DNA of 48,767 bases from an uncultured Holophagaceae bacterium (lineage in GTDB: Bacteria; Acidobacteriota; Holophagae; Holophagales; Holophagaceae), in the NCBI GenBank assembly GCA_903857495.1, contig CAIOFF010000053.1, positions 1 to 48,767 of the forward strand. The letters are read 5' to 3'. Every line of letters starts with the position of its first letter. Position 1 is the first letter of the stretch. Positions 14,958 to 38,124 of the stretch are shown here, one piece after another. The translations under genes and the position numbers were made by a program. Below the pieces are notes generated by a model. The model was not told the origin of the DNA. It saw only the letters and a list, made by a program, of their open reading frames with translations, and searched no databases.

Positions 14958-15082
14958 GAAAGAAAAAAACTCTCGCAGAGGGGCGCGGAGAAAGCAGAGG
15001 CTGCGGAGATTCGTGCCTTTGAGTTCATTCCTCAGCGCCCTCCGCCAACTCTGTGCCCCTCTGCGAGAGTGGTTTTCCTTTC
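14958..15082. repeat. GCAGAG palindromic element, copy A
   Basis: The two ends are long imperfect inverted copies: GAAAG..ACTCTCGCAGAGGGG at the left pairs with the complement at the right (ending ..CTGCGAGAGTGGTTTTCCTTTC). Units of GC(A/G)GAG recur at roughly 9-10 bases within each arm. It lies between yraN and the next gene on the same strand. Three relatives are in this window (20596, 30080, 37773). Confidence 0.8.
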
Positions 15083-15091
15083 GTGATGTCC

Positions 15092-15661
15092 CTACTCGTC
15101 CCGCCGGGGCAGGAGGAGGCTGCGCTGGACGCGCTCGAGGTTGCCGTGGATGCTGACGATCTTCCAGGCCAGGACCATGGCGTAGCCCAGCCAGACCCAG
15201 AGGAGGCGGGGGTCTACCGGGGTGCGCTTGAGGGCGTCGGTGCCCAGGTCCAGCCGCAGGCCCTGGAGATACCAGACCACGACGCCAAAGGCGATGATCA
15301 GGTAGCCCCAGCGGATCCAGTAGGGCCGGAGACCTTCCTTCACCTTCCAGCGCAGCAGCAGCCAGCGGTCGAAGCGGTCGCTCTTCTCCTCCGTGAAGTG
15401 GAGGGCCAGCAGCTGGTCCACGAGGGGGGCATAGCGGTGCGCCTTCAGCTCCTGGATCTCCTCCTCGCCGTTCACCTTGCGCAGGAAGGCCGAGCGGATC
15501 TTGCCGATGCACTCTTCCCAGGGGGCCTCCTCCCGCTGCAGCGAGAGATGCAGGCGCACCAGCCCGACCCAGAGCAGGGCCTGGGCCAGGAGCACCGCCC
15601 AGAGGGACATGCCCTGCCAGCCCTGGGTGCGCACGAGATCGAGGAAACGGGTGAGATCCAT
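15092..15661 (-). CDS. Membrane protein of unknown function (189 aa)
   Basis: I do not recognise a family. The 189 residues contain three likely membrane spans: about 18-36 (MSLWAVLLAQALLWVGLV), about 117-134 (YLIIAFGVVVWYLQGL) and about 153-170 (LLWVWLGYAMVLAWKIV). A charged cytoplasmic segment lies between the first and second spans, and the C-terminus is basic (ERVQRSLLLPRRDE). It is read toward yraN, with palindrome copy A between them. Confidence 0.7.
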   Translation of the reverse strand: MDLTRFLDLVRTQGWQGMSLWAVLLAQALLWVGLVRLHLSLQREEAPWEECIGKIRSAFLRKVNGEEEIQELKAHRYAPLVDQLLALHFTEEKSDRFDRWLLLRWKVKEGLRPYWIRWGYLIIAFGVVVWYLQGLRLDLGTDALKRTPVDPRLLWVWLGYAMVLAWKIVSIHGNLERVQRSLLLPRRDE

Positions 15662-15748
15662 CCCGGCAGTTTAGCCCAGGGGCCGGGGGGGGCTGGGAAC
15701 CATGTAACCTGGACAGGGGCTGGACCGAAGCTGGCCCGGGAGGATCGC

Positions 15749-15922
15749 ATGGGCACCGAAGACCTGAAGTCCGCGACGAACTGGGCCAAGGAGCTGGGCG
15801 TTCCCGAGAAGAAGCTCAAGGACGCCCTCAAGGCCGCCGGCATCGAGCCCGACGCCAAGAAGGGGGTCTGCGCCTTCTACTCCAAGGCCTCCGCCGAGAA
15901 GGCGAAGAAGGGCATCAAGTAG
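15749..15922 (+). CDS. Small basic helical protein (57 aa)
   Basis: A 57-residue lysine-rich protein (MGTEDLKSATNWAKELGVPE...). Residues about 10-32 (NWAKELGVPEKKLKDALKAAGI) resemble the small helix-turn-helix or SAP-like module found at the start of translation factor IF-2, and the tail is rich in Lys/Ala. It could bind nucleic acid, but this is a weak analogy. GGGAGGA lies upstream of the ATG, strong support for translation. It converges with the exonuclease gene, whose stop is four bases beyond its own. Confidence 0.7.
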   Translation: MGTEDLKSATNWAKELGVPEKKLKDALKAAGIEPDAKKGVCAFYSKASAEKAKKGIK

Positions 15923-15926
15923 CCGC

Positions 15927-16565
15927 CTAGACCTTGCTCCAGGGCACTTCCCCCGCCGCCAGGAAGGCCTCGCCGTCCAGGCCCTGGTCCTCGGCGCGCT
16001 TGATCAGGTGCTGGAGGGCCTCGGCGGTGGCTTCGGCGTCCTGCAGGGCGCGGTGGGCGCGGGTGTTGGTGATGCCCAGGAACTCACAGAGCTCGCCCAG
16101 GCTGCGCCGAGGCAGCTCGGGAATCAGGCGCTTGGCCAGCAGCCGGGTGCAGATGAGGCGGTGCCGACGCCAGACGCCTTCGGGCAGCCAGGCCTTCAGG
16201 AAGCTGCCGTCGTAGGGGGCATGGTGGGCCACCCAGACGCGGCCCTCGAGCTGGGGCATGAGCTTCAGGGCCACCTGCTCCCAGGGGGGAGCGCCGGCCA
16301 GCATGGGCAGGGAGATGCCGGTGAGCCGCTGGATCTCCTCCGGTAGGAACCCCTGGATGGAGGCCAGGCTGGAGAAGCGGTCCTCGACCACCAGGCCGGA
16401 GAGCCGCACTAGGCCCACCTCCGTGATCTCCGAGGGCTGGATGAAGCGGCCATCCTTGCCCCAGCGGGCCTTGGGGCTGCCGCCCGTGGTCTCCAGGTCG
16501 ATCACCGCGAAGCTCAGCTCCCGTAGGACGGGGGAGCTGGATTCGAGGAGGGGTTGCTGGGTCAT
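15927..16565 (-). CDS. DEDDh 3'-5' exonuclease (DnaQ-like)
   Basis: A 212-residue exonuclease of the DNA polymerase III epsilon/RNase T superfamily. All DEDDh residues are visible: D23 and E25 in IDLETTG, D119 in AHHAPYDGSFL, and H171 and D176 in AHRALQDAEAT. It has only this domain, so it could be a free-standing proofreading-type or RNA-processing enzyme rather than the replicative epsilon subunit. Its ATG overlaps the end of the zinc-ribbon gene (16562-16565, ATGA), so the two are translated together. Confidence 0.88.
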   Translation of the reverse strand: MTQQPLLESSSPVLRELSFAVIDLETTGGSPKARWGKDGRFIQPSEITEVGLVRLSGLVVEDRFSSLASIQGFLPEEIQRLTGISLPMLAGAPPWEQVALKLMPQLEGRVWVAHHAPYDGSFLKAWLPEGVWRRHRLICTRLLAKRLIPELPRRSLGELCEFLGITNTRAHRALQDAEATAEALQHLIKRAEDQGLDGEAFLAAGEVPWSKV

Positions 16566-16990
16566 GCGCTGACCAGGGTCTTCAGGCCGGACTGGAACAG
16601 CACATCCACCTTCTTGCCGATTCGCCGCTGCACACGGCCCAGGCCGAAGGTGGGGTGGTCCATCCAGGCGCCCTCCTCCCAGACCTCGGAGACGCGGTAA
16701 GGCCGGGCCGAGGCACCACCCTGCTCCCGGACCAGGGTCTCCTGGAACTGGGCGGTCAGGGAGTTGGGCCGGGCGCCGCCGGTTTTCGCTACGGCCGGAA
16801 GGCGCGGGACGCGCGGACTGCGGGCAAGCGGCTCGGGCTTGGCCGCGCGGTACTTGTGAACCGAGCGGCAGTTGCCGCAGATGAGCCGGTCAGGTACGCC
16901 TTCGGAGGCGGTCAGCACCTGATGACGGGTCTCCCCACCGCAGCGACCGCAGGGGGCATCCACATCCTGGCCGGCATAGTAGATCTTCAT
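16562..16990 (-). CDS. Zinc-ribbon protein with C-terminal CarD/Tudor-like segment
   Basis: A 142-residue protein. The N-terminus has two Cys pairs, C14-x2-C17 (CGRCGG) and a second CGNC about 22 residues later, forming a zinc ribbon. A variable basic linker follows. The C-terminal stretch HPTFGLGRVQRRIGKKVDVLF resembles the small SH3-like fold of CarD/Tudor-type proteins (pattern hP-FG-G-V). This suggests a nucleic-acid or RNA-polymerase contact, but no family assignment is certain. GGGAG precedes the ATG. It is coupled to the downstream exonuclease. Confidence 0.7.
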   Translation of the reverse strand: MKIYYAGQDVDAPCGRCGGETRHQVLTASEGVPDRLICGNCRSVHKYRAAKPEPLARSPRVPRLPAVAKTGGARPNSLTAQFQETLVREQGGASARPYRVSEVWEEGAWMDHPTFGLGRVQRRIGKKVDVLFQSGLKTLVSA

Positions 16991-17062
16991 GGCGTGAGAC
17001 TCCCTGGGCCCTGGCCCGCAGGCTTCGCCAACGTTTCCGACCCTTTGTTCATGCCCACCAGA

Positions 17063-19678
17063 CTAGCAGCCCAGCAGAGCCTTCACGTGGGCCAGCCGCT
17101 GTTCCCGCTCCTCGGCCTGGCCGCGCAGCTTGCTCACGGCTGCCTCGGGGGCCTTGGTGATGAAGCTGTCGTCCGCCAGGCGGGCGCGGAGGGGCTCCAG
17201 CTCCTTCTCCAGCTTGGCCAGCTCCTTTTCGAGCTTGGCCTGCTCCGCGGCGGGGTCCTTGAGCCCCGCCAGCTCCAGGGCCACGGTGCCGCCCGCCAGC
17301 ACCGCGACGCTGCGGGTGGGCGAGGTGAGGTCGCCCTGGGTGAAGGTGACGGATTCCAGGCGGGCAATGGACTTCAGGGCCTCCGTGAAGGGCTCCAGCT
17401 CCACCAGGGTGGTGAAGGCCGGCACCCGCTTGGCTGGATCCACGCCCTGGTCCGCCTTGAGCCGCAGGAAGGCCGACAGCAGCTCCTGGAAGCGCGGGAT
17501 AAGGGTGCCATCCCCGCCCTGGATCTTAAGGACTGGCTCATCCACCGGCCAGCTCCGCAGCGCCAGCAGCGGATTTTCCCCCTGAGGTAATCGCGCAGCG
17601 ATGACTTGCTCATGGATTTCTTCGGTAAGGAACGGAACGAAGGGATGCAGGGCCCGCAGCAGGATGTCCAGGAAGCGCAGGATGGCGGCCTTCTGGCCCG
17701 GCGTGCCGCTCACGAGCTGGACCTTGGCCAGCTCGATGTAGGTGGCGCAGAAGTCGTCCCAGACCAGGTGGTAGAGCAGGTCCGAGGCCTCGTGGAACCG
17801 GAACTCCTCCAGCGCCTTGGTGACGGCGTGGAGACCCTCCCTCATCTTTTTGATAAGCCAGAATTCGGCTTCGCCGAATTCTGGCTCCGTCTCCAGCGTG
17901 ATGGACTCATCGAGATTCAATTGGACAAACCGGGATGCATTCCAGAGCTTGTTGCAGAAGTTCCGAGAGGCCTCCAGGCGCGCGGTGCTCATGGCGATGT
18001 CCGTGCCCGGCGCGGCCATGATGGCCAGGGAGAAGCGCAGGGCGTCCGTGCCGTACTCCTCCATGACCTCCAGCGGGTCGATGACGTTGCCCTTGGTCTT
18101 GCTCATCTTCTGCCCGCTGGCATCGCGCACCAGGCTGTTGAAGTAGACCTTCCGGAAGGGCACCTCGCCCATCCAGGTGAGCCCCGCCATGGCCATGCGC
18201 GCCACCCAGAAGAACAGGATGTCGTAGCCCGTGATGAGGACGCTGGTGGGGTAGTAACGCGCCAGCTCCGTGGTCTTCTCGGGCCACCCAAACACACTGA
18301 AAGGCCAGAGCGCCGAACTGAACCAAGTATCCAGCGTATCCGGATCCTGAATCAGTTCCCCAGCTCCGCAGGCGCAGCAGGCGGAGGGCGCCTCCATCTC
18401 CACATGGAGCTCCCCGCACGTGCCGCAGGTCCAGGCGGGAATGCGGTGGCCCCAGACCAGCTGGCGGCTGATGCACCAGTCCTGGATGTTGGTGAGCCAG
18501 TGCTGCCAGACGGCGGCGTGGTGCTCGGGCGTGAACTGGATGGCGCCGGTCTGGACGGCGGTGAGGGCCTTGGCTGCGGCCTCCTTCACATCCATGAACC
18601 ACTGCTCGCTCACCAGGGGCTCCAGGGCCGCGCCGCTGCGGTCGCTGAGGCTGATCTTGTGGACGTAGTCCTCCACCTTGGCCAGGAAGCCCTGCTCCTC
18701 CAGGTCCGCCAGCACGCGCTTGCGGGCCTCGAAGCGGTCCAGGCCGGCGTAGGCGCCCGCTGCGGCGGTCATCTTGGCGTCGAAGCCGATGACGGTGATG
18801 GAGTCCAGGTTCAGGCGCTGGCCCGCGGCGAAGTCGTTGGGATCGTGGGCCGGGGTGACCTTCACGCAGCCGGTGCCGAAGGCGGGGTCCACGAAGCTGT
18901 CGGCCACCACCGGGATCTGGCGGCCCGTGAGGGGCAGGTTCAGGAACTTGCCCACCAGACTGCCGTAGCGCTCGTCGTCCGGGTGCACGGCCACGGCGGT
19001 GTCGCCCAGCATCGTCTCGGGACGGGTGGTGGCCACGATCATGTCGCCGCTGCCGTCCGCCAGGGGGTAGCGCAGGTGCCAGAGCTTGCCCTTGCGCTCC
19101 TCGTATTTCACTTCGAGGTCGCTCAGGGCGGTCTGCAGGGCGGGATCCCACTGGATCATGCGGGGGCCGCGGTAGATGCGGCCGGCCTTGTAGCTCTCCA
19201 CGAAGACGTGGCGCACGGCCTTGTTCAGGGCCGGGTCCAGGGTGAAGCGGTTGCGGGTCCAGTCCACGGAGCAGCCCAGGCGCTTCAGCTGGTGCTCGAT
19301 GGCGCCCTGGTTCTTGTCCTTCCAGTCCCAGATCCGCTGCTCGAAGGCCGCGCGACCCAGCTTGTGGCGGTCGGTGCCCTCGGCCTTCAGCTGGCGCTCC
19401 ACCATCATCTGGGTGGCGATGCCCGCGTGATCCGTGCCAGGCACCCAGAGGGCGTCGAAGCCCTGGGCACGCTTGAAGCGCGTCAGCACGTCGTGGAGGG
19501 TGTTCACCAGGGCGTGGCCCATGTGCAGGTTGCCGGTGATGTTCGGCGGCGGGATGACGATGGACCAGGGCTCCTTGCCGCTGTCCGGGGCCGCCTCGAA
19601 GGCCCGCGAGCTCTCCCACACCGCATACCAGCGCTCCTGGGCGGTCTTGAAGTCGAATGCCTTGTCCATCTCGCGCAT
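17063..19678 (-). CDS. valS: Valine--tRNA ligase (ValRS)
   Basis: An 871-residue class I aminoacyl-tRNA synthetase that charges tRNA-Val. The HIGH motif is HMGH (52-55) after PPPNITGN, the KMSKS motif is K524-M-S-K527-T, and the editing domain and C-terminal coiled coil (about 800-871, Lys/Glu-rich) are present. The start at 19678 has AAGGA upstream; M4 is a possible alternative. The untranslated leader contains a perfect 7-bp hairpin (19708-19714 with 19720-19726), but no T-box sequence is present. A perfect 31-base palindrome lies inside the gene, in the linker between catalytic and anticodon-binding domains, where codon use also becomes less GC-rich. Confidence 0.97.
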   Translation of the reverse strand: MREMDKAFDFKTAQERWYAVWESSRAFEAAPDSGKEPWSIVIPPPNITGNLHMGHALVNTLHDVLTRFKRAQGFDALWVPGTDHAGIATQMMVERQLKAEGTDRHKLGRAAFEQRIWDWKDKNQGAIEHQLKRLGCSVDWTRNRFTLDPALNKAVRHVFVESYKAGRIYRGPRMIQWDPALQTALSDLEVKYEERKGKLWHLRYPLADGSGDMIVATTRPETMLGDTAVAVHPDDERYGSLVGKFLNLPLTGRQIPVVADSFVDPAFGTGCVKVTPAHDPNDFAAGQRLNLDSITVIGFDAKMTAAAGAYAGLDRFEARKRVLADLEEQGFLAKVEDYVHKISLSDRSGAALEPLVSEQWFMDVKEAAAKALTAVQTGAIQFTPEHHAAVWQHWLTNIQDWCISRQLVWGHRIPAWTCGTCGELHVEMEAPSACCACGAGELIQDPDTLDTWFSSALWPFSVFGWPEKTTELARYYPTSVLITGYDILFFWVARMAMAGLTWMGEVPFRKVYFNSLVRDASGQKMSKTKGNVIDPLEVMEEYGTDALRFSLAIMAAPGTDIAMSTARLEASRNFCNKLWNASRFVQLNLDESITLETEPEFGEAEFWLIKKMREGLHAVTKALEEFRFHEASDLLYHLVWDDFCATYIELAKVQLVSGTPGQKAAILRFLDILLRALHPFVPFLTEEIHEQVIAARLPQGENPLLALRSWPVDEPVLKIQGGDGTLIPRFQELLSAFLRLKADQGVDPAKRVPAFTTLVELEPFTEALKSIARLESVTFTQGDLTSPTRSVAVLAGGTVALELAGLKDPAAEQAKLEKELAKLEKELEPLRARLADDSFITKAPEAAVSKLRGQAEEREQRLAHVKALLGC
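17856..17886. repeat. Perfect 14-bp palindrome inside valS
   Basis: Bases 17856-17869 and 17873-17886 are perfect inverted copies around a TTC loop, with a GAATTC in each arm. In the gene it encodes EPEFGEAEFWL, in frame, at the variable linker after KLWNASRF. Adjacent codons (CAA, TTG, AAT, AAA) are unusually AT-rich for this gene. Confidence 0.9.
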
Positions 19679-19876
19679 GGGAATCCTTGGGGGCCGGGCC
19701 GGGCTCTGGGTCGGGAAGGCCGACCCGGAAGACAGAAGACACCAAGGAACCCGGTCAACCGGCGAGCTCTTGGTCCCGAAGCTACCAGTCTACCTGTGGA
19801 GTCCGACCGCTTCCAGCGGAGGGCACCCGGCGGCCCTGGAAGCTGAGAGGATGGAGGGGTTCCAGGTGAGCCCCCC

Positions 19877-20587
19877 ATGATCCTTCGAGCCCTTGCCCTT
19901 GCGTCGCTGCTGCCGATCTGGCCGGCCGCCGCCGTTTCCCTCGAGGGCCTGATCCTGCCCATCCGCCAGGCCGAGGTCTGCGCCCCCGTGGCCAGCCGCA
20001 TCCTGGAGCTGAAGGTGGGAGAGGGGCAGGCCGTCACGGCCGGGCAGACCCTGGCCCTGCTCGACGGCAGACTGGAAGAGCTGGAGATGAAGCGGGCCAA
20101 GCTGCTGCTTGAGCGACGGGAGTTCGAGGCCAAGAGCACCCAGCGGCTCTATGACAGCCGGATCCTCCCCGAGGCCAAGGCCCTGGAGTCGCGCATCGAG
20201 CTGGAGCTGGCCCGACTGCACTACGAGACCGCCGTGGAGCAGGTCCGCCTGCGCACGATCCTGGCCCCCCTGGACGGCGTGGTGGTGGCCCGCAGCCGGG
20301 AAGTGGGCGAGTCCGTGTCAACGGCACAGCCCCTCTTCCGCATCCAGGACCTCAGCCGGGTGCTGGTGCAGTGCGCCGTGGCGCCGGAGGCCCTGGGCGC
20401 CCTGAAGCCCGGGCAGAAGCTCAAGGTGCGGATGCTGCCTCTCGTCTCGGAGGAGAGCTTCGAGGGCGAGGTGGTCCTCGTCACCGCCTGCGCCGACAGC
20501 GAGGGCAAGGTGCAGGTGAAGGTGGTGGTGGAGAACCCCGAGCGCCGCCTCCGCCCGGGCCTGCGGGCCCAGGTGGAGCTGCCTTAG
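19877..20587 (+). CDS. HlyD-family periplasmic adaptor subunit, stand-alone
   Basis: A 236-residue protein with an N-terminal signal peptide (to about residue 19). It has a biotinyl-lipoyl half-motif (ILPIRQAEVCAPVASRILELKVGEGQAVTAGQ), a coiled-coil hairpin (about 55-115), the second lipoyl half (LAPLDGVVVARSREVGESV) and a beta-barrel domain ending LRPGLRAQVELP. This is the layout of adaptors that bridge inner-membrane pumps to outer-membrane channels. It is shorter than most and has no pump gene beside it. It diverges from valS, and palindrome copy B follows directly. Confidence 0.82.
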   Translation: MILRALALASLLPIWPAAAVSLEGLILPIRQAEVCAPVASRILELKVGEGQAVTAGQTLALLDGRLEELEMKRAKLLLERREFEAKSTQRLYDSRILPEAKALESRIELELARLHYETAVEQVRLRTILAPLDGVVVARSREVGESVSTAQPLFRIQDLSRVLVQCAVAPEALGALKPGQKLKVRMLPLVSEESFEGEVVLVTACADSEGKVQVKVVVENPERRLRPGLRAQVELP

Positions 20588-20595
20588 GCGGCAAC

Positions 20596-20718
20596 GGGCA
20601 ACCACTCTCGCAGAGGATGCGGAGATGGCTGAGGTTCGCAGAGAACAGCGGGTAACCCCCAGCCCTCAGTGCCCCTCCGCTCCCCTCGTCTCTTCTCTGC
20701 GAGAGTGGTTGCTTTCCC
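20596..20718. repeat. GCAGAG palindromic element, copy B
   Basis: The left end GGGCAACCACTCTCGCAGAG is matched by the complement of the right end (CTCTGCGAGAGTGGTTGC..CCC). Between them GC(A/G)GAG-type units recur every 9 bases. It is about 90 percent identical by eye to copy C at 30080, including 14 bases past the right end (..GAGCG-GCGGAG). It fills most of the gap between the HlyD-type gene and the hemerythrin gene. Confidence 0.85.
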
Positions 20719-20769
20719 ATGAGCGTGCGGAGAATACACAGGAAGTGGGGTTGGCGTGTCTTGGTTACT

Positions 20770-20800
20770 CCCCTGAATTCCCGGATGATCCTTATTTTTT
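20770..20800 (-). repeat. 31-base repeat, copy 1
   Basis: On the minus strand this reads AAAAAATAAGG-(A)-TCATCCGGGAATTC-(A)-GGGG. It matches plus-strand 48598-48628 at 29 of 31 positions. It lies just past the end of the hemerythrin gene and 51 bases from palindrome copy B. Confidence 0.8.
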
Positions 20801-20808
20801 TCCGGCGC

Positions 20809-21471
20809 CTAATCCCCGTCGCTGCGCTCCCACACTTCTTCCCACTCCAGGTCGGTCCACCACTCCATCTCGAGGCCGTCGCAGGTCTTGCCGTAGGAGG
20901 GGCAGGCGATGCAGCCGTCGCCCCGGTGGACCTCGGCATCATGCTCCGGGGGGTAGCGCAGGACCAGGTCCAGACCCGCTTCCCGGGCCGCCTGCTCGGT
21001 ATCGGTCATGGGGCGGCTGGGCAGGTCCAGGACGTGAAAGCGCCGCAGCCGCTCCTGGCTCTCGGGGAACATGACGGAGTTCTCGGCATCGATGTGCTGC
21101 CAGAGCGAGCGGGTGTAGGCCACCGCGAGCTCCTGCAGGCGCAGACGGTCCGCCTCGGCGGCCAGGGGGCTGTCCAGCAGCTCCGCCAGCCCGTCCAGCA
21201 GGCCGCCCATGCGGTGGTGCTCGCCGGTGAGGGCGGGGATGGGGCCGCGCTCCGCGGGCAGCTCAGCCCGCTCCACCAGGGCCCGGAAGAGGACGGCCTC
21301 CTCCTTGTCGTGGTGGAAGGTGCCGGCGTAGTGGCGGAAGAAGGCCAGGAACCGCGCGCCATCCGTCGTATCGCCGCCGCCGGCGAGGCGGGCGGTCACG
21401 AAGGCGCGGAGGGAACCCAGCACCTGCTCGATGAGGTCATGTTCGGCGTGGAGGTCGTCGATCAGCTGCAT
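20809..21471 (-). CDS. Hemerythrin-domain protein with C-terminal cysteines
   Basis: A 220-residue protein. Residues about 1-145 form a hemerythrin HHE four-helix bundle that can hold a di-iron site: H8 and H11, H53/H54 with E57/E58, H85/H86 and H126 with E130. Such proteins sense or carry oxygen or handle nitric oxide or iron. The C-terminal 40 residues add an unusual C-x2-C-x6-C (GCIACPSYGKTC) and a very acidic, Trp-rich tail (EMEWWTDLEWEEVW). The ATG at 21471 was chosen because it begins the bundle, two bases after the bioB stop; the upstream frame would run into bioB. Last gene of the kdpD-kdpE-bioB operon. Confidence 0.85.
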   Translation of the reverse strand: MQLIDDLHAEHDLIEQVLGSLRAFVTARLAGGGDTTDGARFLAFFRHYAGTFHHDKEEAVLFRALVERAELPAERGPIPALTGEHHRMGGLLDGLAELLDSPLAAEADRLRLQELAVAYTRSLWQHIDAENSVMFPESQERLRRFHVLDLPSRPMTDTEQAAREAGLDLVLRYPPEHDAEVHRGDGCIACPSYGKTCDGLEMEWWTDLEWEEVWERSDGD

Positions 21472-21473
21472 GC

Positions 21474-22424
21474 TCAGGCCCTGACCGCGGCGCCTTCCAC
21501 CCGCATCCCCAGGGACTGGAGCAGCCACTGGTCGTGGTCCAGGCCGGGGCCGGGGGTGGTCAGCAGCTTCTCGCCGGTGAAGATGCTGTTGGCGCCCGCG
21601 AAGAAGCAGAGGGCCTGCAACTCGTCGCTCATCTGGGCGCGCCCGGCGCTGAGCCGGATGCGGCTCTTGGGGAACAGGATCCGGGCCGTGGCGATCATGC
21701 GCACCAGTTCGAGGGGGGGCAGGGGATCGACGTCCGCCAGGGGCGTGCCGTCCACGGCCACGAACTGGTTGATGGGAATGCTCTCAGGCGCGGGCTCCAG
21801 CTCCGTGAGCTCCTGGAGGAAGTGGATGCGCTGGTCGACGGTCTCGCCCATGCCGACGATGCCCCCGGAGCAGACCTCCAGGCCCGCGGCGCGCACGGCG
21901 GCGATGGTCTCCAGGCGCTCGTCGAACTTGCGGGTGGAGATGATGGTCTCGTAGAAGTCGCGGCTGGAGTCGATGTTGTGGTTGTAGACCTGGCAGCCGG
22001 CCGCCTTGAGGCGCTCGGCCTGGGGTACGTTGAGCATGCCGAGGGTGACGCAGACCTCCATGCCCAGGCCCGAGACGCCCTGCACCATCTCCAGGACCGC
22101 ATCGAAGTTGGCGTCGTCCTTCACCTCGCGCCAGGCGGCGCCCATGCAGTAGCGGGTGGAGCCCGCGGCCTTGGCCTCGGCGGCGCCGGCCAGCACCTTG
22201 GCGACGTCCTTGAGGGGCTCGACCTTGAGGGCGGTTTGGTAGCGGGCGCTCTGGGGGCAGTAGGCGCAGTCCTCGGGGCAGGCGCCGGTCTTGATGGAGT
22301 CCAGGGTGCAGAACTGGATCTCTTCTGCGTTCCAGTGCTGCCGGTGGGCCGTAGCCGCCCGGTAGAGGAGCTCCGGCACAGGCAGGTCGTGGATGGCTCG
22401 GATGGCAGCAGCGGTCGGGGACAT
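21474..22424 (-). CDS. bioB: Biotin synthase
   Basis: A 316-residue radical SAM enzyme that inserts sulfur into dethiobiotin, the last step of biotin synthesis. The radical SAM cluster motif C49-x3-C53-x2-C56 (GACPEDCAYC) is present, with the family stretches YNHNIDSSRDFYE, CSGGIVGMGE and SAGRAQMS, which carry the ligands of the auxiliary 2Fe-2S cluster. No other biotin genes are in the window. It sits 23 bases after the kdpE-like gene and two before the hemerythrin gene, suggesting one transcript. Confidence 0.96.
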   Translation of the reverse strand: MSPTAAAIRAIHDLPVPELLYRAATAHRQHWNAEEIQFCTLDSIKTGACPEDCAYCPQSARYQTALKVEPLKDVAKVLAGAAEAKAAGSTRYCMGAAWREVKDDANFDAVLEMVQGVSGLGMEVCVTLGMLNVPQAERLKAAGCQVYNHNIDSSRDFYETIISTRKFDERLETIAAVRAAGLEVCSGGIVGMGETVDQRIHFLQELTELEPAPESIPINQFVAVDGTPLADVDPLPPLELVRMIATARILFPKSRIRLSAGRAQMSDELQALCFFAGANSIFTGEKLLTTPGPGLDHDQWLLQSLGMRVEGAAVRA

Positions 22425-22447
22425 GGGGCGCTCGCAAAGGGCCTATT

Positions 22448-29674: not shown

Positions 29675-29749
29675 CCGTCAAGGGCGGACCTCACATATAC
29701 GCTTTGACGGCCTTGTCTGGGGAAAGTCATCGCATCATCATCACCAGAC
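29675..29749 (+). promoter_or_regulatory. Structured leader before the cold-shock gene
   Basis: CCGTCAA (29675-29681) can pair with TTGACGG (29704-29710), and GTCTGG (29715-29720) with CCAGAC (29744-29749), in the 159 bases between the barrel gene and the cold-shock gene. Structured, temperature-responsive leaders are known for cspA in E. coli; a similar role here is inference. No clear promoter is seen. Confidence 0.3.
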
Positions 29750-29768
29750 TATCTGCAGGAATACCGTC

Positions 29769-29972: not shown

Positions 29973-29990
29973 AGCCTCTGCCATCCAACG

Positions 29991-30018
29991 AAAAGGCGGC
30001 CTCCGGGCCGCCTTTTTT
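29991..30018 (+). terminator. Terminator of the cold-shock gene
   Basis: GGCGGCC (29995-30001) pairs with GGCCGCC (30006-30012) around a TCCG loop, with a run of A before and TTTTTT after. It can act in both directions. Confidence 0.93.
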
Positions 30019-30079
30019 GGGTTCTTCCGGGATATCTGGGATGCCAACGCTCCCTGGATTCATCCAGCTCGTGGGGGAA

Positions 30080-30203
30080 GGGCAACCACTCTCGCAGAGG
30101 ATGCGGAGAGGGCTGAGGTTCGCAGAGAACAGCGGCTAACCCGAAGCCCCCAGCGCCCCTCCGCTCCCCTCGTCTTTTCTCTGCGAGAGTGGTTGCTTTT
30201 CCC
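30080..30203. repeat. GCAGAG palindromic element, copy C
   Basis: Opens GGGCAACCACTCTCGCAGAG and closes with its near-complement (CTCTGCGAGAGTGGTTGCTTTTCCC). It is nearly the same as copy B across the whole element, with mismatches clustered in the loop side. It lies between the cold-shock terminator and the 3' end of the small membrane protein gene at 30224. Confidence 0.85.
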
Positions 30204-30223
30204 TGAGCGCGCGGAGCTGAAGG

Positions 30224-30568: not shown

Positions 30569-30663
30569 GGGCGGTCTCCAGAAGCTCCAGGATCGCATGA
30601 ATGCTGGTTTCATGGGATCGGAAGCAGGTTCTGAAATCCGGGGCTTGACTGTTTCAAACGATC

Positions 30664-30700
30664 GATTAACACTTAAAAATGGATTGATCACTCGATTGAT
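30664..30700. promoter_or_regulatory. AT-rich GATT(G)AT repeats before the TetR gene, possible operator
   Basis: GATTGAT occurs at 30682-30688 and again at 30694-30700 (12 bases apart), with GATTAA at 30664-30669, in an AT-rich patch of otherwise GC-rich DNA. TTGACT at 30645-30650 could be a -35 box. Position and composition suit an autoregulated TetR promoter shared with the divergent membrane protein gene. Confidence 0.4.
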
Positions 30701-30719
30701 TATCGCCCCTGAGGTCTTC

Positions 30720-31394: not shown

Positions 31395-31395
31395 C

Positions 31396-32691
31396 ATGCT
31401 CCTGCTCTCCCCACCTGCTCTCCAGGCGCCGCCCTCCGCCGCGCCCACCCCCGTTTCCCTGGACCTGTCCACTGCCCTCAGCCGCGCCCGGGAGGAGAAT
31501 CCGCTGCTTCGCGCCGCGAGGGCCCGGGTGGAGGAGCGCCGGGGGCTCATCACCACCACCCGCGCCGACGCCCTGCCGCAGCTGTCCCTTGTCGGGGACT
31601 TCACCCGGACCCGGGACGTCTCCATGCTCAACAGCAGCTTCGCGGACCTGGCGCCCCAGTTCGGCTTCCCCGTCTCGAGCCTGGTGGGTGCCCGCAGCGT
31701 CTACACCAGTCAGGCCAGCCTGACGCAGCCCCTCTTCTACTGGGGCAAGCTGGGCACCGCCGTGGACATCGCCCGCATGGGCGAGACCGAGGCGACTCTG
31801 GCCTACACAACCTCGGAGCTGGACGTACTGCACGGCGTGGCCAGGGCCTACCTGGGCGTGCTGGTGGCCCGGGCCGAGCGCGAGGTCATCGCCAGCCGCC
31901 GCCGCACCGCCGAGCAGTTTGTGGCGGACATGAAGGCCAAGCTGGAGGCCCAGACCGCCACGGAGCTGGACCGCATCCGCGCCGAGAGCGAGTTTCTGGC
32001 CGTGATCCCCGAGGCCCTCCAAGCCGAGGCCAACCTGCAGCGGGCCCTGGAGGTGCTGAACGGCCAGCTGGGCCTGGATCCCAAGGCCCCCCTCAGCCTG
32101 GCCGAGCTGGGCCGGCCCGAGGCCGCCGCCCGGCCCACCGGCGCCGAGCGCAGCGAGCTGGCCCAGCTCAAGCAGCAGGAGGCGATGTACCGCGCCAACG
32201 AGAAGATCATCACCTCGGACCTGCGGCCGAAGTTCGACCTCAACGCCACCTACGGCTATCAGGCCGCCAAGACCGACAACCTGTTCAAGGAGCCCTACGA
32301 CACCTGGCGGGTGAGCGTCACGATGAAGTTCCCGATCTTCGATGGGCTGCGCAGCTCCGGCAAGCGGGCCCAGAACACGGCCCAGCTCGAGCAGGTGAGG
32401 CAGGTCCGCATCGACCGGGAGCGGAGCATCGCCATCGAGCAGAGCAGCGCCGACCGCGAGCTGGAGAAGGCCGCGGCCATGGACGAGGCGGCCCGCCGCG
32501 CCCACGACGCCACGGTGGAGGCCCTGCGCATGAGCCGCGAGTCCTTCGACCAGGGCCTCATCACCTCGCTCGATCTCCTGCAGGCGGAACGCGCGGAGCG
32601 CCAGGCCGAGAGCCAGCGCCGCCGCGCCGAGCTGGGCCTCTGGTCCGCCCGCTTCGACCAGCGCCGCGCCCTCGGCCTGCCCCCGCTCTGA
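31396..32691 (+). CDS. TolC-family outer-membrane efflux channel
   Basis: A 431-residue outer-membrane factor: two related halves of long heptad-like helices (ALSRAREENPLLRAARARVEERRG; YLGVLVARAEREVIASRRRTAEQF) and barrel strands, ending with the QGLITSLDLLQAERAERQAESQRRRAELGLW stretch typical of the family. The N-terminus has only a short hydrophobic leader (MLLLSPPALQA), shorter than a normal signal peptide; since the TetR stop is one base before, there is no better start. It forms the outer-membrane exit of the pump encoded next. Confidence 0.93.
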   Translation: MLLLSPPALQAPPSAAPTPVSLDLSTALSRAREENPLLRAARARVEERRGLITTTRADALPQLSLVGDFTRTRDVSMLNSSFADLAPQFGFPVSSLVGARSVYTSQASLTQPLFYWGKLGTAVDIARMGETEATLAYTTSELDVLHGVARAYLGVLVARAEREVIASRRRTAEQFVADMKAKLEAQTATELDRIRAESEFLAVIPEALQAEANLQRALEVLNGQLGLDPKAPLSLAELGRPEAAARPTGAERSELAQLKQQEAMYRANEKIITSDLRPKFDLNATYGYQAAKTDNLFKEPYDTWRVSVTMKFPIFDGLRSSGKRAQNTAQLEQVRQVRIDRERSIAIEQSSADRELEKAAAMDEAARRAHDATVEALRMSRESFDQGLITSLDLLQAERAERQAESQRRRAELGLWSARFDQRRALGLPPL

Positions 32692-32734
32692 TCCCTGCCC
32701 CTCGCCGCCAAGACTCTGAATAAGGAACCACGAC

Positions 32735-33847
32735 ATGCGCGCCAATACCCTCCTCTACATCCTGATCCCGGTGGTCCTCATCGCGGGCGCCGCCACCTAC
32801 CACCGCACCCAGCGCAACACCGAGCTGAACCACCAGACCAAGGTCAAGGCCGAGGGCCTGCTGGCGGTGACGCTGGTGCCGGTGGAGGAACACACCTTCC
32901 GCCCCGCCGTGCCCTTCACCGGCAACCTGCTGGCCGTGAACCGCGCCGAGCTCAAGGGCGAGGTCACGGGCCGCATGACCCGCGTGGCCGTCCAGGAAGG
33001 CGACACGGTGGCCGCCGGTGCCCTGCTGGGCGCCCAGGACGAGGACGACTACCTGCTGGGGGTGCAGGCCGCCGAGGCCCAGCTGACCCAGGCTCGGGCC
33101 CAGGCCCTGCAGGCCCAGCGGGACAACGACCGCGCCATCTCGCTGCTGGAGAAGCGCAGCATCACCAAGCAATCGGCCCAGCAGGCCGAGACCGCCTCCA
33201 ACGCCACCCGGGCCGCTGTCCAGGCGGCGGAGAGCAACCTGGGCCTCGCCCGGCTCCGCCTGAAGAAGGCCCGCATCGTGGCCCCCTTCGCGGGCCAGGT
33301 GGCCCGGCGGCTGGTCCAGCCCGGCGAGATGCTGAACCCCGGCCAGCCCGCCTTCGAGGTGGTGGACAACCGCAAGCTGGAGATCCAGGCCAACCTCTCG
33401 GCCGAGGTCATGGGGCTTGTGAAGCCCGGGCTCTCGGTCACCTTCCGCACGGCCGGCATCGGCTACCCGGTGGCGGGCACGCTCACCCAGGTGAGCCCCT
33501 CCCTGTCGGCGGACGGGCGCACCCTGCGTGTCCGCATTGAAGTCCCGAATCCCGACGGCCAGCTCAAGGGCGGCCTCTTCGTGGAGGGCGTTATCCTCGG
33601 CCAGGGCGAGGTGAAGCTGCCCGCCCTGCCGGCCACCCTCCTCAAGGCGGAGAGCGGCGACGCTGAGCTGTTCGTGGCCCAGGAGGGGGTGGCCCATCGC
33701 CGCAAGGTGTCTCTGGGGGTCGAGCAGAACGGCTTCCGCCCCGTCCAGGGCCTGGGCCTGAAGGACCTAGTCATCGATGGCGGCAAGGACCTGGTGGGCG
33801 AAGGCACGCGCCTGCAGGTCATGACCCCAGCTGTCGGGGGGAAGTGA
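32735..33847 (+). CDS. RND efflux periplasmic adaptor (MFP)
   Basis: A 370-residue membrane-fusion protein linking the RND pump to the TolC-type channel. An N-terminal anchor (about 5-23) is followed by lipoyl halves (RVAVQEGDTVAAGALLGAQD and ARIVAPFAGQVARRLVQPGEML), a helical hairpin between them, and beta-barrel and membrane-proximal domains. AAGGA precedes the ATG. One base separates its stop from the pump gene. Confidence 0.95.
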   Translation: MRANTLLYILIPVVLIAGAATYHRTQRNTELNHQTKVKAEGLLAVTLVPVEEHTFRPAVPFTGNLLAVNRAELKGEVTGRMTRVAVQEGDTVAAGALLGAQDEDDYLLGVQAAEAQLTQARAQALQAQRDNDRAISLLEKRSITKQSAQQAETASNATRAAVQAAESNLGLARLRLKKARIVAPFAGQVARRLVQPGEMLNPGQPAFEVVDNRKLEIQANLSAEVMGLVKPGLSVTFRTAGIGYPVAGTLTQVSPSLSADGRTLRVRIEVPNPDGQLKGGLFVEGVILGQGEVKLPALPATLLKAESGDAELFVAQEGVAHRRKVSLGVEQNGFRPVQGLGLKDLVIDGGKDLVGEGTRLQVMTPAVGGK

Positions 33848-33848
33848 G

Positions 33849-36800
33849 ATGTTCCTTTCCGATTTCTCCATCCGACGGCCCGTCTTCACCGTCTGCATCA
33901 TGCTGGCCCTGGTGGTGCTCGGCCTCTTCTCGGTGAAGGGCCTGGGCATCGAGCAGTTCCCCAACACCGACCTCCCCATCATCACGGTCTCCATCATCTA
34001 TCCCGGCGCCAGCCCCGAGTCCGTCAAGCAGGACGTGGTCAAGCGGGTGGAAGAAGCGGTCAATCCCCTGGAGGCGATCAAGGAGATCAGCTCCACCAGC
34101 CAGGAGGGGCTTGGGACGCTCCTGATCCAGTTCCAGCTCGGCCGCGACATCGACAAGGCGCTGGATGACGTGCGCACCAAGATCGGCCAGATCCGCCGCA
34201 CCCTCCCGAACAACATCGAAGAGCCCGTCATCTCCAAGTTCGACCCGGCCCAGCTCCCCGTGCTCTCGCTGGTGCTGAAGCCGGATGCCAAGCACACGAC
34301 CATGAATGACCGGGAACTCACCCGCATCGCCGATGACTTCCTCAAGCGCCGCCTCGAGAATGTGAGCGGTGTCGGCAAGGTGGAAGTGGCGGGCGGCAGC
34401 ACCCGGGAGATCCTCATCCAGGTGGATCCCCAGGCGCTGGAATCCCGGGGTCTCTCGCTGAACGCGGTGATGAGCACCCTGGGCAACGACACGACCGCCA
34501 TCCCCAGCGGGAGCCTGCTCCAGGGCCGGCGCGAGGTGTCCGTGAAGGTGGATGCCAAGGCCAAGTCCGTGGATGACTTCCGCCATGTGGTGGTGGGCAA
34601 CAAGCTGGGCCGCCCCATCGAGCTGCAGGAGGTGGCCACGGTGGTCGACGGCGTGAAGGAGCGCCGCAGCCTGGCCCGCCTGGATGGCCGGGACGTGGTG
34701 GCCCTGGAGCTGCAGCGGCAGACCGGCGGCAACACGGTGGCCATGGTGACCGCGGTGCGGAAGACCCTCTCCAGCCTGCAGCCGGAGCTGGAGAAGCAGG
34801 GCGTGGAGGTGGTGACGGCCCGCGACAACGCGCGCTTCATCTCCGACAGCGTGGATGACGTGAAGATGTCCATCTACCTGGGCGGCCTGCTGACGGTGAT
34901 CATCGTCTTCTACTTCCTGAAGAGTTGGCGCTCCACCCTCATCACCAGCCTCACCCTGCCGGTGTCCGTGATCTCCACCTTCATCATCATGAAGGCGCTG
35001 AACTTCACCCTGAACACCATGACCTTGATGGGCCTCAGCCTGGCTATCGGCATCCTCATCGACGACGCCATCGTGGTCCGGGAGAACATCACCCGGCACG
35101 CGGAGATGGGCAAGGACCATGTCTCCGCCGCCCGGGACGGCACGGCCGAGATCGGCCCCGCGGTCATCGCCACCACCCTGTCGATCCTGGCGGTGTTCGT
35201 GCCGGTGGCCTTCATGGGCGGCATCGTGGGCAAGTTCTTCTTCCCCTTCGGCATCGTCGTGGCCTTCGCCGTGGCGGTCTCGCTCTTCGTGAGCTTCACC
35301 CTGGATCCCATGCTCAGCGCTGTCTGGCCCGATCCCGAGCACGAGAAGAGCGCCGACGCCCACGTGCACTACCAGGGCAGGAACCTGATCATGCGCAGCG
35401 TGGAGGCCTTCAGCCGCATGCTGGACAGCTGGGAGGTCTTCTACAAGACCGCCATCGAGTGGGCCCTGAACCACCGCAAGACTGTCATGGCCTTGGGCTT
35501 CGGCAGCTGGGTGCTGGCCATGATGCTGATCGGGCTGCTCGGCAACAACTTCATGCCTGATTACGACCGTGGCGACCTGGCGGTGACCTTCAAGGCCGAG
35601 CCGGGCTCCAGCCTCGAGACCACGCGGCAGAAGGCCGAGGCCATCGAGGCCATCATCAAGGCCACCCCCGGTGTGGAGCTGGCCTACACCACCATCGGCA
35701 CGGGCCTCAACGGGACCATCAACTCCGGCAACATCTACGTGAAGCTGAAGGAGGGCCGCCGCCCCCACCACATCCCGATCCGGCGCCAGCTCCGGGAGGC
35801 CTTCCGGGGCCTGCCCGGGGTCGAGACCACCGTGGGCACCGTCAATGACTTCGGCCAGCAGTCCCCCATCATGATCGCCGTGCAGGCCCCGGACCGGGAG
35901 TCCGTGATCCGCGCAGTGCCCCTGGTGAAGGAGGCCCTGCGGTCCGTGCCCGGAGCCGTGGACATCAGCACGAGCCTGGACAGTGGCAAGCCCGAGCTGC
36001 GGCTGGTGGTGGACCGCAAGGCCGCCTCGGACCTGGGCGTGAGCCCCTCCGCCGTGGCCCGGATGGTGCGCCCCCTCGTGGATGGCGAGAAGGTGGCCAA
36101 GTACGAGGACGAGACCGGCGAGCAGCGGGACGTGCGCGTCCGCCTCGCCGACCAGGAGCGGCGCCTCTCGACCCAGCTGGCCAACCTGACCGTGGAGAGC
36201 ACCAAGGACCTCGGCGGCGGGAAGCATCCCCTCATCCGCCTGAACCAGGTGGTGCGCTTCGAGGAGGGCATCGCCCCCGCCAAGCTGCAGCGGCACGACC
36301 TCATGGAAGAAGTGGAGGTCAACGCCAACTTCGAGGGGGCCACCCTCGGCGAAGTGAGCGCCGGCGCCGCCAAGAAGGTCGAGGCCCTCAAGGCCAGCGG
36401 GAAACTGCCCGAGGGCCTGCGCGTGGAGTTCCTGGGCCAGACCCGGGACAGCAAGGAGACCGCCGGCTACATGGGCCAGTCCCTGCTCCTCGCCGTGTTC
36501 TTCATCTACTTCGTGCTGGCCAGCCAGTTCGAGAGCTTCAAGCTGCCCATCACCATCATGCTCAGCCTGCCGCTGTCCATGGTGGGCATGGTCATGATGC
36601 TGCTGGTCACCGGCGACAACATGTCCATGATGACCAGCATCGGCATGATCCTGCTCATGGGGCTCGTGACCAAGAACGCGATCCTGCTGGTGGACCACGC
36701 CCTGCACCTGGAGCGCGAGGAAGGCATCTCCAGGCGCCAGGCCATCATCCGGGCCGGCACCGTCCGGCTGCGGCCCATCCTCATGACCAGCTTCGCCATG

Positions 36801-37049
36801 ATCGGCGGCATGCTGCCCCTGTTCCTGGCGCTGGGCGCCGGCGCGGAGATGCGCGCCCCCATGGCGCGGGCCGTGGTGGGTGGGCTCATCACCTCCACCA
36901 TGCTGACCCTCATCGTGGTGCCGGTGTTCTTCGAGATCCTGGAGGACATGAGCCTGGCCAAGGCCTGGGCCTGGAGCCGGCGTCGCCTCGGCCTGACGGT
37001 GGCCGAGCCGGACCGCGTCCCGCCCCTGGCGGAGGCGCCCGATGTCTGA
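33849..37049 (+). CDS. RND efflux pump, AcrB/HAE1 type
   Basis: A 1066-residue proton-driven inner-membrane transporter with twelve spans and two large periplasmic loops. The opening FLSDFSIRRPVFTVCIMLALVVLG is typical. The proton-relay aspartates of span 4 are D405 and D406 (GILIDDAIVVREN), and span 10/11 carries the conserved GLVTKNAILLVDHA. The HAE1 branch expels hydrophobic drugs, solvents or metabolites; heavy-metal-type motifs are not seen. It overlaps the nitroreductase gene by eight bases. Confidence 0.97.
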   Translation: MFLSDFSIRRPVFTVCIMLALVVLGLFSVKGLGIEQFPNTDLPIITVSIIYPGASPESVKQDVVKRVEEAVNPLEAIKEISSTSQEGLGTLLIQFQLGRDIDKALDDVRTKIGQIRRTLPNNIEEPVISKFDPAQLPVLSLVLKPDAKHTTMNDRELTRIADDFLKRRLENVSGVGKVEVAGGSTREILIQVDPQALESRGLSLNAVMSTLGNDTTAIPSGSLLQGRREVSVKVDAKAKSVDDFRHVVVGNKLGRPIELQEVATVVDGVKERRSLARLDGRDVVALELQRQTGGNTVAMVTAVRKTLSSLQPELEKQGVEVVTARDNARFISDSVDDVKMSIYLGGLLTVIIVFYFLKSWRSTLITSLTLPVSVISTFIIMKALNFTLNTMTLMGLSLAIGILIDDAIVVRENITRHAEMGKDHVSAARDGTAEIGPAVIATTLSILAVFVPVAFMGGIVGKFFFPFGIVVAFAVAVSLFVSFTLDPMLSAVWPDPEHEKSADAHVHYQGRNLIMRSVEAFSRMLDSWEVFYKTAIEWALNHRKTVMALGFGSWVLAMMLIGLLGNNFMPDYDRGDLAVTFKAEPGSSLETTRQKAEAIEAIIKATPGVELAYTTIGTGLNGTINSGNIYVKLKEGRRPHHIPIRRQLREAFRGLPGVETTVGTVNDFGQQSPIMIAVQAPDRESVIRAVPLVKEALRSVPGAVDISTSLDSGKPELRLVVDRKAASDLGVSPSAVARMVRPLVDGEKVAKYEDETGEQRDVRVRLADQERRLSTQLANLTVESTKDLGGGKHPLIRLNQVVRFEEGIAPAKLQRHDLMEEVEVNANFEGATLGEVSAGAAKKVEALKASGKLPEGLRVEFLGQTRDSKETAGYMGQSLLLAVFFIYFVLASQFESFKLPITIMLSLPLSMVGMVMMLLVTGDNMSMMTSIGMILLMGLVTKNAILLVDHALHLEREEGISRRQAIIRAGTVRLRPILMTSFAMIGGMLPLFLALGAGAEMRAPMARAVVGGLITSTMLTLIVVPVFFEILEDMSLAKAWAWSRRRLGLTVAEPDRVPPLAEAPDV

Positions 37050-37746
37050 TCCAGCTTTCTACGCCACGGTGGAGGCCCGGCGCACGGTCCGCAGCTTCCT
37101 GCCCGATCCGGTGCCGCAAGACGTGCTGGACCGGGCCCTGGATGCCGCCCGCCTCGCGCCCAGCTCCAGCAACCTCCAGCCCTGGGAGTTCGTGATCCTC
37201 CGGGATCCCAAGGTCCGCGAGGCCGCCAACGTGATCTGCCTGGATCAGCTTCCGGCCAAGACCGCCCCGCTGCTCATCGCCCTGGTCAGCCACCGGGAGA
37301 CCTGGCGGCGGAACCGGGACGAGATCCTGCGCGTCTTCGAAGCGCGGGGGGGCCTGCGGCCAAGTCAGGTCAGCTACTACCGGAAGCTCATTCCCACCAT
37401 CTACACCACCGGCCCCTTCGGGCTCCTGGGGCCGCTCAAGCGGGGGCTCGCGCGCCTGCTCTCCCTGTTCCGGGCCGTGCCCAGCTTCGGCTCCCGCACG
37501 GACCTGCGCATCGTGGCCCACAAGAGCACCGCCCTGGCCGCCGCCACCTTCATGCTCGCCCTGCGGGCCGAGGGCTACGACAGCTGCCCCATGGAGGGCT
37601 TCGATCCCTGGCGGGCCAAGGCCCTCCTGGACCTGCCCCGGGGGGCCGAGGTCTCCATGTTCCTGGCCGTGGGCAGGCGCGGCGAGCACGGTGTGTGGTG
37701 GGACCGGGTCCTCATGCCCCGGGACTGGGCCGTGCGCGAGCTCTGA
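37042..37746 (+). CDS. Nitroreductase-family flavoprotein
   Basis: A 234-residue FMN-dependent oxidoreductase. RRTVRSF (residues 13-19) and APSSSNLQPWEFVIL (about 39-53) are the family's FMN-binding motifs, and CPMEGFD near the end is also typical. It would reduce nitro compounds, quinones or similar electrophiles with NAD(P)H. Its ATG lies inside the last codons of the RND gene (8-base overlap), so it is made together with the pump, which suggests that chemical modification and export of the same compounds are linked. Confidence 0.92.
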   Translation: MSDPAFYATVEARRTVRSFLPDPVPQDVLDRALDAARLAPSSSNLQPWEFVILRDPKVREAANVICLDQLPAKTAPLLIALVSHRETWRRNRDEILRVFEARGGLRPSQVSYYRKLIPTIYTTGPFGLLGPLKRGLARLLSLFRAVPSFGSRTDLRIVAHKSTALAAATFMLALRAEGYDSCPMEGFDPWRAKALLDLPRGAEVSMFLAVGRRGEHGVWWDRVLMPRDWAVREL

Positions 37747-37772
37747 GCCGTTCCGCGGAAGAAGAACCGCCA

Positions 37773-37999
37773 ACCGCAGAGGACGCAGAGAGCGCAGAGG
37801 CACGCCGACTCATCGGGCATGGGACCGCCTGCGGTCGTGCCCTCCACAAGGCGCGGCAGCGGCGCCCCGAAATGGAGCCCATGCCAGGCGCCTGATCCTC
37901 GTCCATCCCCGGCTAAAGTCCTTTCCCCCGGGTTTGACCATGCCCGGAGGTATCCCTTTGCGCGCTGTTTCCCTCTGCGTTCTCTGTGCTCTCTGCGGT
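37773..37999. repeat. GCAGAG palindromic element, copy D, in a 378-base non-coding gap
   Basis: The gap 37747-38124 between the nitroreductase gene and mfd has no convincing gene. Its left arm (37773-37800) contains CGCAGAG three times at 9-base spacing, and 37971-37999 is its near-complement (24 of 28 positions by eye). Unlike copies A-C, the arms are about 170 bases apart. A T-rich stretch with further CTCT motifs follows up to mfd. Confidence 0.7.
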
Positions 38000-38124
38000 G
38001 AAATCTCTTTTTGGGGAATCCCGAAGGATTCCTTTGTTCTCAGTCATTTCTTGGGTTCTTCCTCTCTTCGTGGTGGATCTTTTTCAGTGGGACTGAACGA
38101 ATCTTGAGGCACTCTGGAAGGTCC

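Follow-up and report, generated by a model that had tools for sequence, protein, structure and literature searches.

The Palindromes of the Window

The window is a complete 48.8-kb contig (48,767 nucleotides) from an uncultured Holophagaceae bacterium, and is part of a 3.70-Mb draft genome that is 98.5% complete. It contains four palindromes, called here elements A to D, and this report concerns their nature and their relation to GxxExxY genes, which are bracketed by similar arrays elsewhere. The original prediction had placed the four palindromes between genes, and all four were present at the predicted coordinates, with protein-coding genes as neighbours. Element A (14958..15082) lay between a UPF0102 gene and an open reading frame (ORF) without a Pfam match on the same strand, and element B (20596..20718) had convergent HlyD and hemerythrin genes on either side. 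Element C (30080..30203) had a cold-shock gene on one side and an ORF lacking a Pfam match on the other, again convergent, and element D (37773..37999) was located between nitroreductase and mfd/TRCF genes running in the same direction. The palindromes themselves carry no strand assignment.

The palindromes measured 123–227 bp and were built of GC-GAG units. Starts of the GC[ACGT]GAG unit were located at 14975, 14985, 14994 and 15003 in A, at 20610, 20619, 20628 and 20638 in B, at 30094, 30103, 30112 and 30122 in C, and at 37776, 37785 and 37794 in D. The spacing was 9–10 bases, which upholds the periodicity that had been described for GC(A/G)GAG. Ten forward unit pairs were counted in the window, against a mean of 0.94 and a maximum of 5 in 100 dinucleotide shuffles; three facing pairs were counted against none in the 100 shuffles, and one reverse pair against 0.74. 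The predicted RNA folds of A, B and C on the + strand (z of -8.4, -5.7 and -4.8) and that of D (z of -5.3) each beat all 200 shuffles.

The four palindromes had been taken for a single family. The unit is indeed common to all, but the ends divide them into two types. Type 1 comprises A, B and C and has the ends ACTCTCGCAGAG...CTCTGCGAGAGT, with four GC-GAG units in the left arm of A; the type-1 cores of B and C were 93% identical, as their reported near-identity had implied. Type 2 is represented by D and has the ends AACCGCAGAGGACGCAGAG...CTCTGCGGT, with three GCAGAG units in the left arm. The arms of D are 28 nt each and stand 171 nt apart, in agreement with the loop of about 170 bases first noted. 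This interior is longer than that of type 1 and, at 171 bp, is too short for a whole GxxExxY ORF.

Copies in the Genome

The pattern GCRGAGNNNGCRGAG occurred 77 times in the genome, against 15 occurrences of the reversed control pattern. With B as the query, 11 places were found in its own genome, including B itself, aligned over 115–123 bp at 88–100% identity, together with further matches that were shorter or more divergent. Element D matched additional sites in the genome of the window, and many others in G406, G408 and G412. The genome search thus found the further copies that the original prediction had expected. Type-2 copies on contigs C1, C37 and C58 lay at most ~250 bp from the contig ends; the assembly therefore seems to break at such copies, and their number may be underestimated. 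Two other places, C11:25212 (L012) and C20:12620 (L020), had GCAGAG units in the left arm and ACAAAG units in the right arm or in a neighbour, and are perhaps recombinants between two unit families.

Several type-1 copies had outer flanks of ~60 and ~85 bp in common, as judged by eye. In the window, these were the 3' outer flank of B (20719..20800, end approximate), which ends ...CCTGAATTCCCGGATGATCC, and the 5' outer flank of C (30018..30079, start approximate), which reads GGTTCTTCCGGGAT...GTGGGGGAAG. The equivalent of the B flank ended GAAATCCCGGATGAACC in other type-1 copies (by eye), and in copies L032–L043 of the same genome the outer flanks ended GGTTCTTCCGGGATTTC and, inverted, GAAATCCCGGATGAACC. 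Element A and the copies L045, L051 and L054 were without these flanks. Where present, the flanks may form a second mobile unit, of composite structure, that encloses the palindrome.

Only one of the 23 predicted pairs of the type-1 stem showed a double change, and the stem is therefore too conserved for covariation to be judged within type 1. Pairing-preserving changes had been expected among the copies; inside type 1 there were nearly none, while across unit families both arms changed together. The idea of a structured RNA gains little from this, as the sole Rfam match in the window at the gathering score was a tRNA and the palindromes were unmatched.

Presence, Absence and Nesting at Orthologous Sites

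Unit types, nesting and the lack of an array at a site were judged by eye unless counted. Within the genus, orthologous sites were empty, or held the same element, or held a different array palindrome, and some elements were nested. Site A was alignable in three relatives: G407 had the orthologous palindrome, G133 had a palindrome of CACCAAG units in the same place, and G027 had unrelated sequence. At site B, 11 stretches were examined and eight relatives could be aligned across both flanks; the element was missing from all eight, and the site was compact in G354, G396 and G408, where the flanking genes almost touch. Among six alignable relatives at site C, G396 carried the element, G412 had half an array, built of a different unit, and neither was seen in G354, G407, G133 and G027.

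Site D was alignable on both sides in 22 relatives (seven others lacked one side), and D itself was found in one of them, G407. Three relatives showed nesting: G406 and G412 carried a type-1 GCAGAG palindrome in the loop of one built of GAAGACAG/CACGAAG units; in G409, the inner palindrome was CGCGAATG and the outer one CACGAAG. G040 had a CACGGAA palindrome and G401 a half array; in the remaining 16 of the 22 no array was seen. G354 was among the relatives that lacked D. A further type-1 site, C50:14248, was compared in seven relatives, where G396 held the same element, G403, G400 and G076 were empty, G407 and G354 differed, and in G412 a GCCAAG palindrome enclosed one of CACGAAG units.

A GxxExxY element occupies site C50:7787 in this genome. 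The 13 relatives compared there comprised three with GxxExxY, eight with a heptamer palindrome, one with a GCAGAG palindrome resembling D and one with a GCCAAG palindrome. The GxxExxY element L141:2200-2706 of this genome differed from L362 in G407 at 1 of 506 bases, while the flanking 300 bp on the two sides were 94.6% and 97% identical; this is a hint of either recent exchange or strong constraint.

The suggestion that these are non-autonomous mobile elements is strongly supported by the further copies, the empty and occupied orthologous sites and the nested insertions. The palindromes are real, multi-copy and mobile, and each of A to D consists of two facing arrays of ~9–11-bp units with presence and absence at orthologous sites.

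GxxExxY Genes Bracketed by Inverted Arrays

The GxxExxY family corresponds to PF13366/TIGR04256, is named PDDEXK_3 in Pfam and belongs to the PD-(D/E)XK family. All GxxExxY genes considered here lie outside the window. Bracketing was scored as the best ungapped inverted match between ~320 bases on each side of the gene, with a threshold of 17, and flanks shifted outward served as the control. The loci, like those of PF05635 below, were mostly the top of score-ranked lists rather than a random sample.

The family was detected in 139 of 396 genomes of the phylum and in 36 of 42 genomes of the genus. In the phylum set of 95 loci (three short loci of the first 38 were dropped, and L090, with a stop in the domain, was kept), 76 reached the threshold, compared with 0 of 94 shifted controls. 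The genus set contained 83 loci, one of 84 being left out for an incomplete flank; 72 reached 17, against 3 of 78 controls. Seven of the genus loci repeat phylum loci (six of these reach 17), so the union holds 171 distinct loci. GxxExxY genes were bracketed by inverted arrays of ~9–11-bp units in 142 of these 171 (3 of 172 for the control).

Units of the form C-R-C-N-R-A-G were found in 49 of the 76 bracketed phylum loci and faced inward in all 49, with other units in the remaining 27. In the genome of the window, six of eight PF13366 genes were bracketed, by units such as ACAGATGAAC, CACCGATGAAC, CACCAAG, CACGAAG and GTGAGGAACA. Inward-facing GCAGAG arms were identified around GxxExxY genes of the same genus at L394 (in G407, a close relative), L404, L408 (in G124), L467 and L468; the unit type of D is therefore one found around GxxExxY ORFs, and the arms of D resemble those of L394. 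From a reading of the flanks, these five genes adjoin a queF-like gene. A flank reading also placed the GxxExxY genes L423, L432, L452, L454, L456 and L466, from several species of this genus, which have GCGGAG-type units and arm scores of 14–23, directly before a mutS-like gene.

Beyond the phylum, plasmids and virus-derived sequences were included in the search. Four of eight plasmid records with GxxExxY reached 17, namely those of Bernardetia, Sphingomonas and Bacteroides, all three with arms near the gene, and that of Gemmatirosa. In IMG/VR, one scan was without a relative and the others returned five, three and one loci, the three and the one on contigs of earlier scans; all five GxxExxY loci, on four distinct sequences, reached 17. 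The GxxExxY genes of IMG/VR contigs L375, L376 and L377 had long inverted arms of AT-rich units such as ACTTAAAATTT. One query of phage records gave no GxxExxY match.

The GCAGAG unit itself was widespread. One scan of genome contigs found the type-2 arm pattern in at least 115 stretches, and the matches listed included Acidobacteria, Cyanobacteria, Planctomycetota, Verrucomicrobia, Deltaproteobacteria, Chloroflexus, Chlamydiae and Selenomonadales. Among 95 GCAGAG-array matches in 80 loci, 36 had an inverted partner within 2.5 kb, with a median loop of 73.5 bp. In Aridibacter, a GCAGAG array adjoins the start of a GxxExxY ORF (L290), whose opposite side lies beyond the stretch examined.

Agreement Between Arms, Units and Protein

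The unit sequence varies from element to element, and the two arms of one element vary together. Within a unit class, the arms of the same element had a median score of 24–25, against 9–12 for the arms of other elements, and outscored every other partner in 11 of 13, 20 of 25, 9 of 14 and 11 of 13 elements of four unit classes. Spacer positions were identical in 157 of 241 cases (65%) within elements and in 44% between them; for the free unit position, agreement was 0.71 within and 0.39 between elements. The two arms are thus matched beyond the class motif, though their pairing is not strict, as would be expected if the palindrome is kept or copied as a unit.

Units and proteins also agreed. 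For proteins below 65% identity, protein similarity was correlated with the number of common arm 6-mers (Mantel r of 0.24, not reached in any of 2000 permutations). On a tree of the 76 proteins, limited by five long rows and few columns, the unit classes required 23 changes against 44.6 when shuffled, and none of 200 shuffles was as low. The suggestion that the palindromes are protein-binding arrays fits both the anatomy of tandem units and this agreement of unit class with GxxExxY lineage, the binding being putative.

The protein is under purifying selection, as GxxExxY orthologues at fixed sites gave ratios of nonsynonymous to synonymous change (dN/dS) of 0.06–0.18 where synonymous change was unsaturated. 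An alignment of 26 sequences showed D61, E71, Q85 and Y89 to be invariant and K73 to be conserved in at least 90%. The family therefore keeps D..ExK followed by QxxxY, which we take to be the marks of Cas4/RecB-like PD-(D/E)XK nucleases. A sequence search of the PDB with GxxExxY found no solved relative.

Proposed Mechanism of Mobility and Alternative Explanations

We consider it fairly probable that the palindromes of the window are ORF-less, non-autonomous members of an unnamed class of mobile element, served in trans by a cognate GxxExxY protein. A complete element would consist of two inverted arrays, each of ~2–4 units of 9–11 bp, around one GxxExxY ORF, with a unit sequence that differs among GxxExxY lineages. 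The protein would recognise arrays of its own unit, either as a double strand or as an extruded hairpin, and would cut the element or its surroundings. Repair could then copy the element into other intergenic places, or exchange it there, and ORF-less copies would move in trans for as long as both arms remain recognisable.

A number of observations weigh against this proposal. With regard to the association, 29 of the 171 GxxExxY loci fell below the threshold of 17, as did four of the eight plasmid records (Treponema, Prevotella, Persicobacter and a Fusobacterium, with scores of 12–13), and in the genome of the window the GxxExxY genes L063 and L068 had arrays nearby without being bracketed. 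None of the eight GxxExxY genes of that genome had GCAGAG arms; their brackets were all of other unit types, and the genome thus yielded no cognate for the GCAGAG family. The unit of A–C matches, but the exact type-1 ends were not seen around any GxxExxY gene. In Gemmatirosa (L379), the GxxExxY gene appears to be frameshifted, and it is flanked by two complete GCAGAG palindromes instead of lying inside one. No inverted partner was found within 2.5 kb for 59 of the 95 GCAGAG-array matches, many of them in Cyanobacteria. The group of units classed as "other" was not clustered on the protein tree (8 changes; 151 of 500 shuffles as low). At the level of structure, the AlphaFold model of GxxExxY, built from four sequences, was too weak for the fold to be assigned (predicted local distance difference test, pLDDT, of 61), and a fold search with it gave a best Z of 4.2, with restriction-endonuclease-like chains and XisH among rows that were all below Z 5. 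With regard to insertion, the empty alleles of site C (G407 and G354) contain ~24 bp absent from the occupied alleles. No target-site duplication, a check that had been proposed for a mobile element, was evident by eye at sites A–D and two more, where relatives were several to more than 20% diverged. Finally, GxxExxY may be cargo, as it is under purifying selection and seemingly long resident at two sites.

GCAGAG arrays that stood alone were observed at L244, L249, L262, L294 and other loci of Cyanobacteria. Such solo arrays may be remnants of arms or may reflect a different use of the unit.

The strongest alternative is that GxxExxY is a passenger, in which case another factor would move the inverted arrays, such as a transposase, recombination by the host or slippage of replication at hairpins, and the small ORFs would be carried along for the persistence that they lend the element. 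The many ORF-less copies for which no cognate GxxExxY gene was found agree with this, as do the selection on the protein, its long residence and the position of the Gemmatirosa gene; two unrelated ORF families, GxxExxY and the four-helix-bundle family described below, moreover share the same architecture. A passenger would nevertheless leave unexplained that the unit class tracks the GxxExxY tree below 65% protein identity, a divergence at which linked non-coding sequence would be expected to have decayed, and that 9–11-bp units go with GxxExxY and mostly 7-bp units with the four-helix protein. We regard this explanation as unlikely.

It is improbable that the palindromes act as terminators of transcription, or as hairpins for RNA stability, and were repeatedly replaced between genes, with mobility being incidental. 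In favour of this reading, the predicted hairpins are very stable, B and C lie between convergent genes, and other hairpins occupy the same sites in some relatives. Intrinsic terminators, however, need neither phased arrays, nor matched arms that bracket an ORF, nor agreement between unit and protein; many relatives have no array at the same site, and nested copies exist. Least probable of all is that the palindromes are repetitive extragenic palindromic (REP) sequences or bacterial interspersed mosaic elements (BIMEs) moved by a RAYT (Y1) transposase, or miniature inverted-repeat transposable elements (MITEs) of a classical insertion sequence with the type-1 outer flanks (GGTTCWTCCGGGATTTC at both ends) as terminal repeats: several type-1 copies do have common 60–85-bp outer flanks with inverted-looking ends (by eye), but these are missing from A, L045, L051 and L054, no Y1_Tnp match was found in the genome (the control was positive in 5 of 14 genomes), the sites compared showed no target duplication, and in relatives it is GxxExxY that the arrays enclose.

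Relation to Known Repeats and Elements with 7-bp Units

The proposed elements resemble several known systems in part. The published account of REP/BIME sequences and RAYT genes (REPtrons) describes small intergenic palindromes in many copies, a gene flanked by the same repeat, and ORF-less copies presumed to be moved in trans (PMC3733652), all of which is similar to the arrangement reported here. RAYTs are, however, tyrosine (HUH) transposases, whereas the gene of the array elements belongs to the PD-(D/E)XK family; REPs are 20–40 bp long with a GTAG or CGTC tag (PMC3733652), whereas the present palindromes are inverted arrays of 9–11-bp units and span 123–227 bp. A RAYT/Y1 transposase was also sought as a candidate, and PF01797 had 0 matches in the 98.5%-complete genome, in whose missing part such a gene is possible. 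MITEs are likewise short, non-coding and repeated, with inverted ends. They differ in that the array elements had no target duplication or parent transposase found for them, and in that their ends are arrays whose unit varies by family.

A second family was examined in the same way. PF05635 is a four-helix bundle, the S23p family of rRNA intervening sequences, and was detected in 186 of the 396 phylum genomes. It was not found in the genome of the window, either in a genome search, whose control was also matchless, or in the phylum search. Of 30 PF05635 loci, 25 had full flanks, and 23 of these 25 (among L209–L238) had inverted arrays on both sides, mostly of 7-bp units (0 of 25 for the control); L234 is such a gene in the same genus. 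Among 24 plasmid records, all six PF05635 loci examined (L501–L506) reached 17, with the shifted control of L502 also scoring 26.

In a report on Coxiella, the intervening sequence (IVS) of the 23S rRNA carries a small ORF, S23p, inside a stem, a layout similar to that of the GxxExxY elements, and tandem heptamers (GACAGAT) precede that ORF (PMC4990558); the inverted arrays of mostly 7-bp units in the four-helix class are similar to these heptamers. Older proposals of a transposition or mobile-element origin for IVSs are cited in the same source. These IVSs reside within rRNA, from which RNase III removes them (PMC4990558), whereas the GCAGAG elements are intergenic, have 9–10-bp units and go with another protein family. 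Elements A–D are not rRNA IVS/S23p elements: their neighbours are protein-coding, and their interiors, of at most 171 bp, hold no S23p ORF. The SPADE survey, in its excerpted text, reports tandem heptamers as the most abundant intergenic repeats, with no clear clue to their function (PMC6344855). They are similar to the present arrays as widespread short-period arrays between genes; the survey reports the periodicity, and the inverted pairing and the link to a gene, both present here, were not seen in that text. In a literature search of open-access PMC text, as far as it was available, no work was found that links GxxExxY, PF13366, TIGR04256 or PDDEXK_3 to mobile elements, so priority is unproven; for a tie of GxxExxY or S23p genes to tandem repeats, PMC4990558 (S23p, Coxiella IVS heptamers) was the only source found there.

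We hold as evenly balanced the broader proposal of an unnamed class in which mobility is set by inverted arrays of short units, read by one small PD-(D/E)XK (GxxExxY) protein, with arrays and protein diversifying together. In this proposal, a parallel 7-bp/four-helix class would include the 23S rRNA intervening sequences as rRNA-resident members, and the two classes together would explain many 7-bp and 9–11-bp intergenic arrays. Such arrays would then have a testable answer, as arms of tiny mobile elements around two common uncharacterised genes, and the association may account for a type of repeat that is dispersed across many bacterial genomes. If true, the proposal would give a role to the GxxExxY and four-helix-bundle proteins, hint at where rRNA intervening sequences came from, and provide natural pairs of protein and repeat from which recognition could be decoded by family comparison.

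The window also contains a palindrome of 7-bp units (14373..14552, no strand assigned), with GCTGTCA/GCTGTCG units, between FHIPEP (flhA-like) and UPF0102 genes. It is ORF-less and of the same class as the arrays that bracket PF05635 genes. Among the plasmid loci, Pseudanabaena (L502) and Anabaena sp. 90 (L503) had the four-helix element between cas6 and cas4, and Picosynechococcus (L505) had it between cas10 and a cmr3-family gene.

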